Shown here one piece after another: positions 20,521-26,123 of a DNA stretch of 64,000 nt. This stretch comes from Candidatus Hydrogenedentota bacterium (lineage in GTDB: Bacteria; Hydrogenedentota; Hydrogenedentia; Hydrogenedentales; JAEUWI01): assembly GCA_019637335.1 (NCBI GenBank), contig JAHBVV010000011.1, positions 1-64,000 of the forward strand, written 5' to 3'. Position numbers and translations under genes: made by a program. Position 1 is the stretch's first letter, and the number at the start of each line of letters is the position of its first letter. The notes under the pieces were generated by a model, which was not told the origin of the DNA, ran no database searches, and worked only from the letters and a program-made list of their open reading frames with translations.

Positions 20521-20829
20521 ATGGAGAAGCGTAAGCCCCACTACACGCTGTCTCGCATAAAGTAGCTTATTGAGGCGGGCCAGTATCGACTCACCAAGAC
20601 CGCGCTACAGTGCGCCGCGCGGGATTTTGGATTTCTCTCCTCCGCTGAGGTGGCTACGCAATTGCTTGCCATCGAGCATTGGAGTTTTTACAAGTCGATG
20701 ACTGCCGTACACGACAGTGGCCTTTGGCAAGATGTTTACCGTCCATCAATAAACGGCAGAGAAGCCTACGTGAAGGTTCAAATTCTGAATGATATGACGG
20801 TTGTCATATCCTTTAAAGGACGGGAGTAG
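20521..20829 (+). pseudogene. mqsR: MqsR-like RNase toxin interrupted by TAG
   Basis: The frame from ATG 20521 encodes an MqsR homologue of normal length (102 codons with the stop): MEKRKPHYTLSRIK, then TAG at 20563-20565, then LIEAGQYRLTKTAL, DFGFLSSAEV, FYKSMTAVHDSGLWQDVYRPS and VVISFKGRE. MqsR is a GCU-specific mRNA interferase of the RelE fold; the FYKSMT and WQDVYRP blocks are the family hallmarks. One amber codon at position 15 stops translation; the rest is free of frameshifts, which points to a recent loss or a base-call error. TAG ends several ordinary genes here, so readthrough is not expected. Confidence 0.8.
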
Positions 20830-20836
20830 TAGGCCG

Positions 20837-21250
20837 ATGCGGGAAAAAAAGTGGACAGACTGCCCCGCGTGCGGCGCGCGCGGAAGTATGCGCCAACGGG
20901 CGGGTCAGTCGGAACGAATTCAGCCCGCGGGCTATCCTCCGCTTGACATAAGCGAGCTGGACGGTCAGTTTTGTTCGGCGTGTGGCGATGGCTTCTGGTC
21001 AATGCGGTCTGAGCGGCGTATCACGCGACTGCTGGCCGCACACAAGGCGGAATTCGACGCGGGACGCGTTGTAGCCGCGGAACTGGCCAGCGTTCGGGAA
21101 GGCGCCGAAGCGTTGGGCGTTACGGTGCAGGCCATACACCGGATGATGGATGAAGGGCGGTTGCGGTATGTACTGGCCGGAGGAACCCGGCTGCCCATCC
21201 GGAAGGACCTCGAAGCGAAGGCCAGGGCGCGCGGCCGTACGCCGGTCTGA
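20837..21250 (+). CDS. mqsA: MqsA-family antitoxin
   Basis: A 137-residue antitoxin. The N-terminal zinc domain shows CPACGARG (about residues 8-15) and CSACGDGFW (about 42-50), giving the two Cys pairs of MqsA. The C-terminal half ends in a helix-turn-helix of the excisionase/MerR type (VREGAEALGVTVQAIHRMM, GGTRLPIRKDLEAKA) rather than the Xre-type domain of E. coli MqsA. It binds and blocks MqsR and represses its own operon. It starts 7 nt after the mqsR stop. The frame is intact while the toxin is interrupted. An upstream in-frame GTG at 20801 exists, but the ATG next to MREKKWTDC fits family starts. Confidence 0.8.
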   Translation: MREKKWTDCPACGARGSMRQRAGQSERIQPAGYPPLDISELDGQFCSACGDGFWSMRSERRITRLLAAHKAEFDAGRVVAAELASVREGAEALGVTVQAIHRMMDEGRLRYVLAGGTRLPIRKDLEAKARARGRTPV

Positions 21251-21684: not shown

Positions 21685-22077
21685 ATGGCGCCATTGATAT
21701 CGGAAGCGGAAGCACAAGTTTTGCAGGCCCTGGTGGAGATGGAGGAGGCGACAGCCCGCGAATTATATGCGGTACTCGCGGAATCCACAGGCTGGGCGCA
21801 GCCCACGGTAGTCACATTCTTGCGGCGGCTCGAGGCCAAGGGGCTGGTGTCTCACAGCAAGGAGAAGGGCCAGCGGGCCTTCCTCTACCGGCCCAACCAG
21901 CGCGGGCGCTCGGCGGGCCGGGAGCAGGTGAAGAACCTGGTGAACCGGGTCTTTGGCGGCAACCCCGTGCCGCTTATGTCCATGTTTGTGGAAGAGGAAG
22001 CGCTCACGAAAGAGCAGATCACGGCGCTGCGGCAGTTGCTCGATGAGCAGGAAAAAAAGAAGGGAGGCAGGGTATGA
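21685..22077 (+). CDS. BlaI/MecI/CopY-family repressor
   Basis: A 130-residue penicillinase-repressor-like protein: ISEAEAQVLQALVEM at the start and a winged helix with STGWAQPTVVTFLRRLEAKGLVSHSKEKGQRAFLYRP. The C-terminal helices (TKEQITALRQLLDEQEKK) should dimerise. It should bind the two operators upstream and be cleaved when the neighbouring M56 protein senses a signal. AAGGAGG at 21673-21679 lies 5 nt before ATG 21685. Another ATG at 21661 is at the predicted transcription start and could give 8 extra residues as a leaderless form. It overlaps the next gene by 4 bp. Confidence 0.9.
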   Translation: MAPLISEAEAQVLQALVEMEEATARELYAVLAESTGWAQPTVVTFLRRLEAKGLVSHSKEKGQRAFLYRPNQRGRSAGREQVKNLVNRVFGGNPVPLMSMFVEEEALTKEQITALRQLLDEQEKKKGGRV

Positions 22078-24389
22078 ACCGCATGATCGAAGCGCTCAAC
22101 GGGATTGCGGCGGCATGGTGGGATTGGACGGTGGCGTCCACGTGGCAGGGGGCCTTGCTTCTGTCGGTAGTCGGGGTGATCTTGGCCGCGGGCAGGTCGC
22201 TGCGGCCGGGCTTCCGCTACGGCCTGCTGCTGGTGGTGCTGCTGAAGTTCGCCTTGCCGCCGGTCTTCGGCGTGGCCTACGGGTTTTCGGATCTGCTGGC
22301 GCGCGCATTCAGCGGTGTCCCCGCACCGGCGTTGAACACGGACGTGTACGAAGTTGTGGTTGCGCCGCCTCCGCCAGCAACAGCGACGGTGCCTGCGCCC
22401 GCTCCCCTGGCGCGTATAGCGCCTCAAGCGCCCGCGCTTTCTCCGCTGGCGTGGTTGCTGGTCCTGGAGGTGGCGGGCGCCGGGATGCTCCTCTTCCTGA
22501 TCGCGCGCCAGTGGCGTGTGGCGAGGCAATTACTGCGCGGGGGCGTCGACGGCGATGAACCCTTGCGGCAGCGCTTTCGGGCGGCTGTCCGCGCCATGAA
22601 GCTGCGGCGCACGCCCCGGCTCTGTCTCAGCGACGGGGCCAGCGCGCCGCAATCCGGCGGCATCCTGCGTCCCTTCGTTCTGCTGCCTTCGTGGGCCGCG
22701 GCGATGCCAGCGGACGAGCTCGAAATCCTCCTCGCGCACGAACTCGCCCATGTGCGGCGCAGGGACGCGCTGGTCAACGGTTTCCAGGCTGCGGCACAGG
22801 CACTGCTCTGGTGGAACCCCGCCGTGTGGTGGCTGAACCCCCGCATCCGCGAGGAACGCGAGTTTTGCTGCGACGACCTGGTGCTCGCGCGCGGGATAGC
22901 CAGCGGGGAGGCCTATTCGCGGGCCTTGGTCAATGTTGCGGAACGTGTTTCGTTGCCCGCGTCTCCCTGGGCCATGGCGGGCATGGCGGACAACTTTCGC
23001 GCGCTCGACCGGCGCGTGCGGATGGCGCTGGACGGCGGACATGGACGCCGAGGCTGGGGGCACTACGGGGCGATGGTGGTCGTAGTGCTGGTGGCGGGGT
23101 GGGTACTGCCTGGCGCGACTGATGAGGCGACCGATGAACGCAAGGAGGGGTTCGATCCCGTCGGGAAGAGCGCCGATGAGACGTCAATTGATTCTGTTAC
23201 GGTTAACGATGCGCCGGGAAGGGCCGATGCGGAGGAGGAACTGGTGATCGCGTCGGAAGGTACAGCCGTGCCGGAACCCGAGAATTTCTTGCCCGGACTC
23301 GAGTATCAAATCCTGAACATGACCGCGGAAAGAATTTCCAGGGATCACGTCAAGCCGGGTGTCATGGGACCGTTCGGGCCGCGGGACCACCGGATGACGG
23401 TTTTTGAGGAAGTCAGCTTGACGCTCCACTCGGCGCAGCATGCCGTGGACATTAATATCAAGGCAAAACGACTGGAACACACCACAGGCAGCGACAGCGA
23501 CGGCCTGATGGTGTGGGAAGGCGATGTGGAGGCGCAATTCGCCGAGTTTACCGCACAGGCCGAGCGCCTGGAGTTTACCTCAACCTTTCTGTTTTTCAAT
23601 GCGAATCTCTTATTGAGGGACTTCGGCACGGTCCAAGCTGAGCAGATTCGCGTGGACCCAGTAGCCAGGCGCATCGATGTACTGAACGGCACCGTTGACG
23701 AGGCGCGCCTGAAGGAAGCCTTCGGCGAGAACGCCACGTACGCACCCAGGGGCGAATGGCTGACACTGCCCTTTGCCGTCGTTCGGCAGATTGTGGTCGA
23801 TGCGTGGATAATGGAGGTTGACCGTGATGCGGACCTGAAATTGCCCGATGCGATGAGGCGCGTATCCGAGAACGACAGCCCTGCGTCAAGAACCGTTACG
23901 GGCGGAAGTGAGCAGGATCCAAAGGCTCTTGTTGCGGGAACCGCGAGTAACGAGGAGTGGTCCGTTTGCAAAGCGGGAATCATGGAACTTGTCGACGCGG
24001 GCCGCGGCAAAATTGTAGGTGCGCCCAAGTTAATCACCCTTGACGGACAGGAGGCGACGATTTCGATTGGGACCGAAGTTCCATACACGCAGGATGACGA
24101 GATCGCTTATGAATTTGAAGGTATGAAATTGGGTGTTCTGGTTTCGGTTGTAACCGCGGAAAATGGCTCGGAAGGCTTCGACATCAGGCTCAACTACACG
24201 CGCACAACGCAACAGGACCCTGACGCCACGCCTCCGGTTTTTGAAACCGCCGAGACGGCGCATTCCATTCGGTTGGAAAGTATTCACGATCCGAGATGGA
24301 TTTACTTCATGACGGTGCGGCCGGGAGCGCGTCATGAGTTGGTGGCGTTCCGTGTTTCGCTGGTCCGGCCGGGCGGTCAACCCGCATAG
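22074..24389 (+). CDS. BlaR1-like M56 metallopeptidase fused to LptA-like and secretin-like modules
   Basis: A 771-residue membrane protein. Residues 1-150 have three to four hydrophobic helices. The M56 domain contains HELAH at 222-226 and the later EREFCCDDLVLA motif (third zinc ligand Glu and following Asp). A further membrane segment lies at about 325-345 (VVVVLVAGW). The extracytoplasmic part is unusual. About 430-560 looks like an OstA/LptA-type strand repeat (VWEGDVEAQFAEFTAQAERLEF). About 570-771 resembles the secretin core: QIVVDAWIMEVDRDA, then GKIVGAPKLITLDGQEATI and SIGTEVPY. M56 proteins cleave BlaI-type repressors after sensing an envelope signal; here sensing may be linked to outer-membrane assembly. 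No beta-lactamase gene is nearby. Confidence 0.8.
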   Translation: MNRMIEALNGIAAAWWDWTVASTWQGALLLSVVGVILAAGRSLRPGFRYGLLLVVLLKFALPPVFGVAYGFSDLLARAFSGVPAPALNTDVYEVVVAPPPPATATVPAPAPLARIAPQAPALSPLAWLLVLEVAGAGMLLFLIARQWRVARQLLRGGVDGDEPLRQRFRAAVRAMKLRRTPRLCLSDGASAPQSGGILRPFVLLPSWAAAMPADELEILLAHELAHVRRRDALVNGFQAAAQALLWWNPAVWWLNPRIREEREFCCDDLVLARGIASGEAYSRALVNVAERVSLPASPWAMAGMADNFRALDRRVRMALDGGHGRRGWGHYGAMVVVVLVAGWVLPGATDEATDERKEGFDPVGKSADETSIDSVTVNDAPGRADAEEELVIASEGTAVPEPENFLPGLEYQILNMTAERISRDHVKPGVMGPFGPRDHRMTVFEEVSLTLHSAQHAVDINIKAKRLEHTTGSDSDGLMVWEGDVEAQFAEFTAQAERLEFTSTFLFFNANLLLRDFGTVQAEQIRVDPVARRIDVLNGTVDEARLKEAFGENATYAPRGEWLTLPFAVVRQIVVDAWIMEVDRDADLKLPDAMRRVSENDSPASRTVTGGSEQDPKALVAGTASNEEWSVCKAGIMELVDAGRGKIVGAPKLITLDGQEATISIGTEVPYTQDDEIAYEFEGMKLGVLVSVVTAENGSEGFDIRLNYTRTTQQDPDATPPVFETAETAHSIRLESIHDPRWIYFMTVRPGARHELVAFRVSLVRPGGQPA

Positions 24390-24583
24390 GCAGTTGCGGG
24401 GAACGGTCCCTCGGTCCGTGCGGCCAATTCGATAGCGAAATCACGGTGTTTGGTGTAAAATACAAGGCGGCGCGATCGGTAGGTCGACCGATCTACCGGC
24501 GTGGAGTCGTATTGACGGTATGGATCGTAGAGGACGACAAACCCTTTCGACTGGTGACAGCGTACCCGGATGATTTCAAATGA
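24390..24583 (+). pseudogene. Truncated DUF6883-like remnant
   Basis: Directly after the M56 stop an open frame without its own start runs to TGA at 24581-24583. Readable residues include DSEITVFGVKY, RRGVVLTVWIVEDD and FRLVTAYPDD, resembling the C-terminal part of DUF6883 proteins, which often precede DUF4926 genes. The stop overlaps the DUF4926 start by 4 bp. The 5' part is missing, which fits a truncated first cassette or deletion at the M56 boundary. Confidence 0.45.
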
Positions 24584-24804
24584 TTGCTGAACATTCACTT
24601 GTGGTATTGGACTGCGAGCCGCCGCACGACAAACTGAATCGTGGTGACGTGGGAACTGTGGTGCATGTTTACCAAGGCGGTCGCGGATATGAGATCGAGT
24701 TTGTCGATGGCGGGGGACGGACAGTGGCGCTTGTCACCGTTGATGCCGGCGATCTTCGGCCAATAGAACCTGGTGAACTTCTCCACGCCCGACGTACAGC
24801 TTAG
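24580..24804 (+). CDS. DUF4926-family small protein
   Basis: A 74-residue beta-rich protein matching the DUF4926 pattern: VVLDCEPPHDKLNRGDVGTVVHVYQGGRGYEIEF and VALVTVDAGDLRP. These are SH3-like small proteins, often found beside DUF6883 in accessory regions and suspected to be toxin-antitoxin-like pairs; the function is not established. It ends 4 nt before an attC-like site (24809-24905), so it looks like the gene of an integron cassette. The start overlaps the stop of the DUF6883 remnant. Confidence 0.7.
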   Translation: MIAEHSLVVLDCEPPHDKLNRGDVGTVVHVYQGGRGYEIEFVDGGGRTVALVTVDAGDLRPIEPGELLHARRTA

Positions 24805-24808
24805 ATCG

Positions 24809-24905
24809 CAGAAACACGATTCGAGGGGAGCGGCGGATCGGGTCGCTCCCCCTCTCTGACAAGAACAGTTCCCAACCACCACCCGCTGAATCGAGTGTGT
24901 TATGC
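24809..24905 (+). other. attC-like recombination site 1
   Basis: The site starts with CAGAAAC and ends with GTTATGC (97 bp). The inner arms pair as CGATTCGAG against the complement of CTGAATCG, leaving one unpaired G, the extrahelical base typical of attC. The centre holds a strong hairpin (GGGGAGCG/CGCTCCCC, about 24825-24850). The R'' box is a poor match to RYYYAAC. Confidence comes mainly from pairing with site 2. Confidence 0.5.
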
Positions 24906-24964
24906 ACTGCGAACATGATCAACTTCACCTCGGGGTTGTACAATGAAGCAAGGAGGTGCAATCC

Positions 24965-25183
24965 ATGACGAAGCTGCTGGAGAAGGCCTTTGCCGAGGCC
25001 GCGAAGCTGCCCGAGGAGGCGCAGGATCGCATCGCTGCGCAACTGCTCCAAGAGCTGGCGGACGAAGCGAAGTGGGACACTTCATTTGCCGCCTCCGCTT
25101 CCCAACTCGAGCGGCTTGCGGCCGAGGCTCTGGAGGAGTACCGGGCTGGTCGAACTCTGGAGTCGGGGTTTGACGAGCTTTGA
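24965..25183 (+). CDS. Antitoxin of a RelE/ParE-type pair
   Basis: A 72-residue acidic helical protein (MTKLLEKAFAEAAKLPEE, AAQLLQEL, EEYRAGRTLESGFDEL) of the kind encoded before RelE-like toxins. The C-terminal ESGFDEL tail probably wraps the toxin. AAGGAGG lies 8 nt before the ATG. Its stop shares bases with the TTG start of the toxin gene (TTGA). The pair sits inside an attC-bounded cassette and is the only complete toxin-antitoxin pair seen in the window. Confidence 0.8.
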   Translation: MTKLLEKAFAEAAKLPEEAQDRIAAQLLQELADEAKWDTSFAASASQLERLAAEALEEYRAGRTLESGFDEL

Positions 25184-25449
25184 ATTCGCATGTCACTGCG
25201 GAATTCCGCCGCTTATTTATGAATCTCCCGAACGAGGTGCGTCAGCGCGCACGCCACAGCTACCTGCTCTGGAAGGAGAACCCGGCTCATCCCGGTGTTC
25301 AGTTCAAGCGGGTGCACCGCCGCCAGCCCATTTACTCGGTGCGGATCGGTATCGATTGGCGCGCTGTCGGCCTTCGGCAGGGGGAGACGATTATTTGGTT
25401 CTGGATCGGTTCACACGCTGAGTACGACGCCTTGCTCAAGCGTCTTTGA
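25180..25449 (+). CDS. RelE/ParE-family toxin, intact
   Basis: An 89-residue protein with the RelE-like fold: FRRLFMNLPNEVRQRARHSY, WKENPAHPGVQFKRV, YSVRIGIDWRAVG and WFWIGSHAEYDALL. This matches the cytotoxic translational repressor subgroup, whose members usually cleave mRNA. Translation appears to start at TTG 25180, overlapping the antitoxin stop, which would keep toxin production low and coupled. The attC-like site begins 16 nt after the stop. Residues conserved in the subgroup (H, R, Y and the terminal EYD) are present. Confidence 0.8.
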   Translation: MNSHVTAEFRRLFMNLPNEVRQRARHSYLLWKENPAHPGVQFKRVHRRQPIYSVRIGIDWRAVGLRQGETIIWFWIGSHAEYDALLKRL

Positions 25450-25465
25450 TGGTCGATGTGAGGTT

Positions 25466-25524
25466 GCATAACATAGCATGCAGCAGAAGGCGCACCGCAC
25501 CGCCGCCGAACTGATGCGTTAGAC
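25466..25524 (+). other. attC-like recombination site 2 (59 bp)
   Basis: R'' GCATAAC (25466-25472) and R' GTTAGAC (25518-25524, full match to GTTRRRY) bound a 59-bp imperfect palindrome. Next to the outer boxes GCATGCAG pairs with CTGATGC, leaving one extra unpaired G, as in attC sites. R'' complements the 5' boundary of the cassette, not its own R', as expected for a cassette inside an array. Confidence 0.7.
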
Positions 25525-25679
25525 GCCAAGAAGACGTCATGACCGTCAAGAACGCCGTGATGCGTACGGCCGGACGTCCACGCCGGCTCAAGTTGTCCCG
25601 ACTTCTCGTGGCCGCCGATCACCGCGATGCCCTGGTGAACGCGAGGCTATTGCGCTTCGAATTAATGTGTCGCGGTTTG
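25525..25679. other. Continuation of a following cassette-like unit
   Basis: After the attC site a 50-codon frame (25539-25691, plus) can be read with no recognisable similarity. No third attC site was found, so this unit is probably truncated at its 3' side by the esterase remnant. Confidence 0.35.
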
Positions 25680-25831
25680 TCAGTCCCTTGACGCTGCCAC
25701 ATGCCCACGTATCGTCTCCAGCACCATCGCATCCCATTCCGGCGCCACGGCGTGGTTCATCAGCGGCTTGTTGAGCATTTCCTTCTTGCCCTGGAGGTTG
25801 TTGTATGCCGCATAGACGCTGGTGGGGCGGC
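25680..25831 (-). pseudogene. C-terminal remnant of an acetyl-xylan-esterase-like gene
   Basis: About 50 minus-strand codons read CRPTSVYAAYNNLQGKKEM, then NKPLMNHAVAPEW and a stop. Acetyl-xylan/cephalosporin-C esterases carry C-P-P-(S/T)-S-V-(F/Y)-A-A-Y-N followed by a G-P-K turn and a G-H motif, so this is read as the last part of such an enzyme (the catalytic His region altered to NH). It has no start and is joined directly to a truncated PIN toxin. Confidence 0.5.
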
Positions 25832-25879
25832 AGTGAGAAAAATAAGCGGAGAGGCGTTAACGACGGCGGCGTCAGCCAC
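25832..25879 (-). pseudogene. DUF3368 PIN-domain toxin cut to about 15 codons
   Basis: A GTG at 25879, overlapping the end of the UPF0175 gene by 8 bp, begins VADAAVVNASPLIFL. V-x-N-A-S-P-L-I-F-L is the N-terminal signature of DUF3368 PIN-like toxins, which normally follow UPF0175 genes. Similarity stops after 15 codons, where esterase-like sequence in another frame takes over. The toxin has therefore been deleted almost completely. Confidence 0.6.
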
Positions 25880-26123
25880 GGGAGAGCTCACGGTCGAGGT
25901 CGTCAAAATCTACCTGAAATGAATCCCTTCCCATCCGGGCCAGCGCCAGGAGGAAGTCAGTCCGGCACATGCCCGCGACCTGTGCGGCGATTTCCTGGGA
26001 GACTTTGCCGCTCTCATACCAGGTGACGGCGGCCGCGAGCCGTAACTCACCGGGAAAGTCCGCCGGTGAAAGGCGCAACGCGCCCAGCACACCTTCTGGA
26101 AGTTCGACAGTCATCGTAGTCAT
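25872..26123 (-). CDS. UPF0175-family antitoxin
   Basis: An 83-residue protein: VELPEGVLGALRLSPADFPGELRLAAAVTWYESGKVSQEIAAQVAGM, then TDFLLALARMGRDSF and DLDREL. UPF0175 proteins have a ribbon/helix DNA-binding fold and act as antitoxins of DUF3368 PIN toxins. The frame is complete, but its partner gene downstream retains only its first codons. It may now be silent, a self-regulating leftover, or a protection against related toxins. Confidence 0.8.
   Translation of the reverse strand: MTTMTVELPEGVLGALRLSPADFPGELRLAAAVTWYESGKVSQEIAAQVAGMCRTDFLLALARMGRDSFQVDFDDLDRELSRG

Follow-up and report, generated by a model that had tools for sequence, protein, structure and literature searches.

Integron cassettes that lie apart from an integrase are known as CALIN, in which attC-bounded cassettes occur without a nearby integrase. 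CALIN have been proposed to be degraded integrons, and IntegronFinder 2.0 by default requires at least two attC sites for a CALIN (PMC9024848). Off-target insertion and integron erosion have both been put forward as CALIN origins, and toxin-antitoxin (TA) systems rank among the commonest cassette contents (PMC8618304). Insertions into non-attC genomic sites have also been described (Loot et al. 2024, as cited in PMC11023631). In the sedentary chromosomal integron of Vibrio cholerae, a TA pair is found as one cassette with its genes directed towards the attC. Vibrio TA cassettes have their own promoters (PMC11023631).

The locus described here lies in a 64-kb stretch of DNA, which was analysed at its full length and is called the window. 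Region 24390-25678, between the genes for an M56 peptidase and an esterase, represents, with high confidence, an eroded remnant derived from integron gene cassettes. As in V. cholerae, a TA pair forms one cassette with its genes towards the attC, but no array is left at this locus. The relic is CALIN-like in kind, with one recognisable attC after the M56 peptidase gene, and represents an ordinary kind of fossil. It shares with CALIN an attC-bounded cassette and the absence of a nearby integrase, but its only recognisable attC is decayed. Because one site passes, while the upstream candidate reaches at most 7.6 bits and the default rule asks for two attC sites, we describe the locus as a single-attC remnant and not as a CALIN. 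The "cluster of attC sites" considered by the first-pass annotation of this DNA is thus reduced to one site, which is degenerate and predicted to be unfoldable. The features of the locus are as follows.

24392..24583, plus strand: 3' remnant of a DUF6883 gene (PF21814), 5' part (first half) missing; left edge of the relic
24580..24804, plus strand: DUF4926 gene, 74 aa, intact (PF16277, E 2.3e-17)
24807..24905, plus strand: hairpin resembling an attC, with a single additional G and R' GTTATGC at its end; either a degenerate attC or no attC at all
24899..24905, plus strand: GTTATGC, the R' marking the 5' limit of the TA cassette, with the recombination point just 3' of G 24899; complemented by R'', sole plus-strand copy
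24965..25183, plus strand: antitoxin gene, 72 aa, AGGAGG ribosome binding site before the ATG; homologues lie beside ParE-like toxins
25180..25449, plus strand: ParE-like toxin gene, 89 aa (PF24732, E 2.7e-12); its start overlaps the antitoxin stop
25466..25524, plus strand: decayed attC of the TA cassette, with R'' GCATAAC, L'' region GCATGCAGCAGAAGGC and R' GTTAGAC; identified by models and alignment, predicted fold lost
25518..25662, plus strand: decayed VOC/glyoxalase cassette (leader, start codon, middle piece) with internal deletion and frameshifts
25680..25833, minus strand: 3' end (~50 codons) of an esterase gene, marking the right edge of the insertion; 119 bp are 91.6% identical to congener G001

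Three attC covariance models were built, and the window site was absent from the training of all of them. Model R1 consists of 38 aligned sites adjoining integron integrases of other genomes, the integrases having been collected from named genomes and plasmids. A strict box-and-hairpin scan of integrase loci gave 58 sites compared to 10 in shuffles, the 38 sites of R1 being drawn from these 58, and R1 itself yielded 169 matches at E up to 5 in 83 integrase loci. Models R2 and R3 comprise 150 and 57 sites, respectively, those of R3 stemming from the order to which the window belongs. On both strands of the window, R1 produced a single match, 25466-25524 on the plus strand (20.5 bits, E 0.011), which spans all 68 model positions. 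The same site was the sole match of R2 (18.2 bits) and ranked first with R3 (19.7 bits), where the runner-up reached 14.0 bits (E 0.75). With these own-built models the site therefore scores 18.2-20.5 bits at E 0.01-0.04; a score of 18-20 bits lies at the low end among true sites, which counts against its reading as a relic attC. Over its full length, the site is alignable with 60-bp attC sites from genomes of the order, such as L200 GCCTAACAACCGGTTGCAGCGGACGGCGCTGCGCGCCGCCGCTGAACCGGAGCGTTATAC. The alignment score was 55.5, whereas none of 300 controls, in which the R boxes were kept and other window sequence was placed inside, exceeded 47.5. The L'' core TGCAGCrGAmGGC is common to the window site and the attC sites of L200, L183 and L192, but the hairpin pairing of these sites is lost in the window copy. 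Among all GTT positions of the window, the 20 bases preceding R' GTTAGAC obtained the top score against real L' arms.

The boundary boxes reported previously are present in the sequence: R' GTTATGC at 24899-24905, R'' GCATAAC at 25466-25472 and R' GTTAGAC at 25518-25524, the latter two delimiting a downstream site of 59 bp (25466-25524, plus strand). On the plus strand of the 64 kb, GTTATGC occurs once and GCATAAC twice. R'' is the exact complement of GTTATGC at 7/7 positions, with a spacing of 567 bp. The argument that an inserted cassette carries an R'' complementing its own 5' boundary is borne out by a reference set of 117 cassettes flanked on both sides by a detected attC: R'' exactly complements the own 5' R' in 82 of them (70%) and the following R' in 17 (15%), compared to an exact complement rate of 7.5% in R''/R' pairs from unrelated arrays. 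GTTAGAC and GCATAAC follow the R box consensus RYYYAAC / GTTRRRY, the latter being one base off RYYYAAC; despite this deviation, the GCATAAC box is used by real attC sites in L100, L135, L115, L103 and L184. The TA cassette thus extends over 24900-25518 (619 bp), and its genes are co-directional with the attC, as expected. Hence the proposed cassette boundary with the TA pair as content is supported.

A further line of evidence comes from the adjacent unit. From CGTTAGACGCC onward, the window aligns to the VOC/glyoxalase gene of two relatives, G052 and G048 (L045, L209), with the leader GTTAGACGCC common to all three, and a search with the intact VOC gene retrieved the window remnant at E 7.9e-14. 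The homology starts exactly at R' GTTAGAC and not before. Upstream of R', the window, G052 and G048 contain three different sequences, each of which scores as attC (R1: 20.5 bits in the window, 26.2 bits in G052; R3: 19.4 bits in G048). The unit following the TA pair therefore starts with R', and what precedes it varies among the three genomes, as is characteristic of a cassette. In the window, the VOC gene is a pseudogene. The gene preceding the corresponding attC in G052 shows weak HicA/HicB-like matches. No attC was recognised after the VOC gene in G052 and G048, where VOC is a candidate complete cassette. In G005, a genome of the window's family, 52 bp matching the beginning of the G052 VOC gene at 98% identity occur in isolation (L227, G005:C127:8706-8757).

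In contrast to the downstream site, 24807-24905 was not recognised as attC by any of the three models with filters off, the maximum being 7.6 bits for 24870-24905 only. Of the attC check suggested by the first-pass annotation for the whole region, only the part concerning 25466-25524 (18-20.5 bits) came out positive. The upstream hairpin contains one extra G (GATTC-G-AG / CT-GAATC), and a comparable extra-G hairpin is present at 4 of the 541 GTTR positions in the window, including the upstream site itself. Its L' sequence is not unusual, an equally good score being reached at 291 of the 1360 other GTT positions. Following the three models, the hairpin count and the L' comparison, the upstream site was not accepted as attC.

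The flanks of the relic were compared with congener G001, in which the M56 gene and the whole esterase gene converge at a distance of 220 bp with none of the relic genes between them. In the window, this interval measures 1.29 kb and only the last ~50 esterase codons are left. The DUF6883 remnant covers profile positions 64-109 of the 110 in PF21814 (E 6.7e-6, 26.8 bits versus a cut-off of 27), and the DUF4926 gene is possibly a candidate previous cassette. Because the esterase gene is truncated on the right and the DUF6883 gene lacks its first half on the left, the inserted stretch is eroded at both ends. The surrounding locus is also rearranged relative to G001: an MqsA-like gene (20801-21250) lies upstream of a penicillinase-repressor gene in the window, while its homologue in G001 adjoins a beta-helix gene instead. 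The repressor gene precedes the M56 gene (22074-24389), which encodes a BlaR1-type M56 peptidase domain and, near the C-terminus, a secretin-family match (E 6e-7), an unusual pairing. A putative ParE-like remnant in the intergenic region of G001 (FWIGHTRRR) was ruled out by a profile search (E 0.3).

As to the origin of the relic, one or two cassettes might have been inserted off-target into an attG-type or other non-attC site by an integrase acting in trans, instead of being left over from the erosion of a resident integron. This would be in line with the single recognisable attC, the lack of a platform and an upstream site unlike attC. Nevertheless, the VOC cassette follows and the DUF6883 and DUF4926 genes precede the TA cassette, suggesting an array, and the erosion of both edges has made the original site unreadable. 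Off-target insertion is a possible, though less likely, origin, and it leaves the identification of the region as a cassette remnant unaffected.

A second alternative considers that the TA cassette is still mobile, with a functional attC from which an incoming integrase could excise it. R'' and R' retain their AAC and GTT cores, and the match to the own boundary is exact. However, the model scores are low (18.2-20.5 bits), L' and L'' have ceased to pair in the correct register, and the predicted fold is lost. When folded as single-stranded DNA, the window-site strand has a z-score of +1.0, a level matched by 176 of 200 shuffles, compared to bottom-strand values of -6.0 for L200 and -3.8 and -2.2 for two L183 sites, its closest relatives; two more true attC sites gave -1.9 and -1.7. 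A bulged hairpin with an extrahelical base and an unpaired spacer was not predicted for the window-site strand in this comparison with 200 shuffles. The unpaired G previously described for both sites is found in the upstream hairpin, but in the downstream site it appears only in the register GCAT-G-CAG / CTG-ATGC, in which no spacer remains ahead of R'. Loss of the L'-R' spacer by deletion, as this register would imply, was considered and not retained, because the alignment with L200 indicates that substitutions in L' explain the site equally. Continued mobility is thus very unlikely. Because the window site is predicted not to fold as a hairpin while its relatives do, 25466-25524 is probably a dead site, derived from an attC but predicted to be unable to form a recombination substrate.

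In the window genome (G000; 96% complete, 55 contigs), no IntI over the cut-off was found, and the best TIGR02249 matches were partial (C-terminal) with 89 bits versus a cut-off of 265. The annotated absence of a nearby integrase thus extends to the search of the whole genome, and the locus does not represent a complete integron with intI and attI next to attC. Within the same order, G044 contains an intact intI with attC, and larger CALIN-like arrays occur: G024 has at least 17 attC sites over contigs C10, C80, C225 and C268 (L183-L186) and no integron integrase over the cut-off. Counts of attC in G000 are lower bounds, because an initial screen covered 150 of about 15,900 candidates. A search of G000 with the conserved attC core pattern gave no match, although this pattern would miss degenerate sites too. 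A second attC-like remnant in G000 (C34:16815-16863; L216 1501-1549, minus strand) has kept its core arms and lost its R boxes. It adjoins a DUF6714 gene, which is followed by the half-site-like GCCGCCGCCACTGACGCAGAGCGTTCCGC. With 22.4 bits and E 1.3 for the whole genome, this remnant rests on its likeness to the attC sites of the order and on its setting.

We propose the following course of events for the preferred reading, an eroded cassette remnant. The definable cassette would run from the first G of GTTATGC (24899) to the attC ending in GTTAGAC (25518), with the overlapping antitoxin/ParE-like pair located before the VOC cassette. Based on established integron knowledge, an integron integrase supplied by another element or by a since-lost integron would have bound the folded strand of the attC on the circular cassette. 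The cassette would then have recombined at the GTT in front of the VOC cassette, between G and TT. With no integrase found today and an attC that, presumably by drift, is no longer predicted to fold, the cassette would have become fixed. Integron cassettes would thus have reached a lineage that is now without a detectable integrase. The combination of model match, own-boundary match, neighbour-cassette junction and fold provides a worked test for distinguishing attC fossils from chance similarity.

The TA genes still look intact, while the surrounding sites and genes have decayed. The toxin belongs to a family known from type II TA systems (PF24732, ParE_like), with ParE-like homologues in 18 of 100 genomes. 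The antitoxin matches no family in Pfam or NCBIfam, and its homologues adjoin ParE-like toxins in several relatives. The window's own TA pair is found as an intact cassette in no relative. The TA homologues of the order encode proteins that are at most 58% identical and lie at other loci, and the attC model searches detected no attC beside them. The first-pass annotation had stated that the same genes without boundary boxes in relatives would argue against a cassette; TA homologues without a detected attC do exist in the order, but at no more than 58% protein identity and at other loci they do not represent the locus of the window pair. That the pair is an ordinary chromosomal TA module with boundary boxes by chance, as the homologues outside detected cassettes and the failure of the upstream site in the models might suggest, is highly improbable, because the E 0.011 match, the exact own-boundary match and the VOC junction are separate lines of evidence that converge with single-base precision.

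In contrast to the own promoters of Vibrio TA cassettes, no sigma-70-like promoter was found at the TA pair in a consensus scan, although such a scan carries little weight in a non-model phylum. The pair is probably expressed and retained as an addiction module. The view that TA cassettes stabilise large arrays, raised in the first-pass annotation, does not directly apply, as the array is gone: the VOC gene survives as a pseudogene, and truncation has affected the DUF6883 gene as well as the esterase gene. The TA cassette may outlive its neighbours after integrase loss, its own genes being kept by addiction while its flanks and its own attC decay. We consider this scenario rather unlikely; if it holds, a TA cassette on its own would be a general fossil trace of an integron that has vanished. 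Should lone TA cassettes regularly survive array decay, they could help to map lost integrons and would support the idea that TA cassettes protect their own DNA.

In two Gallionellaceae integrons (L063 2737-3434, L066 9336-10001), a ParDE-like pair arranged like that of the window separates intI from the first cassette boundary. Because the sequence preceding this boundary is similar in both, the pair may be part of the integron platform, between intI and attI, and not a cassette. In the window, a UPF0175 gene (25872-26123, minus strand, E 2.6e-20) directly follows the relic and is possibly a further TA component.
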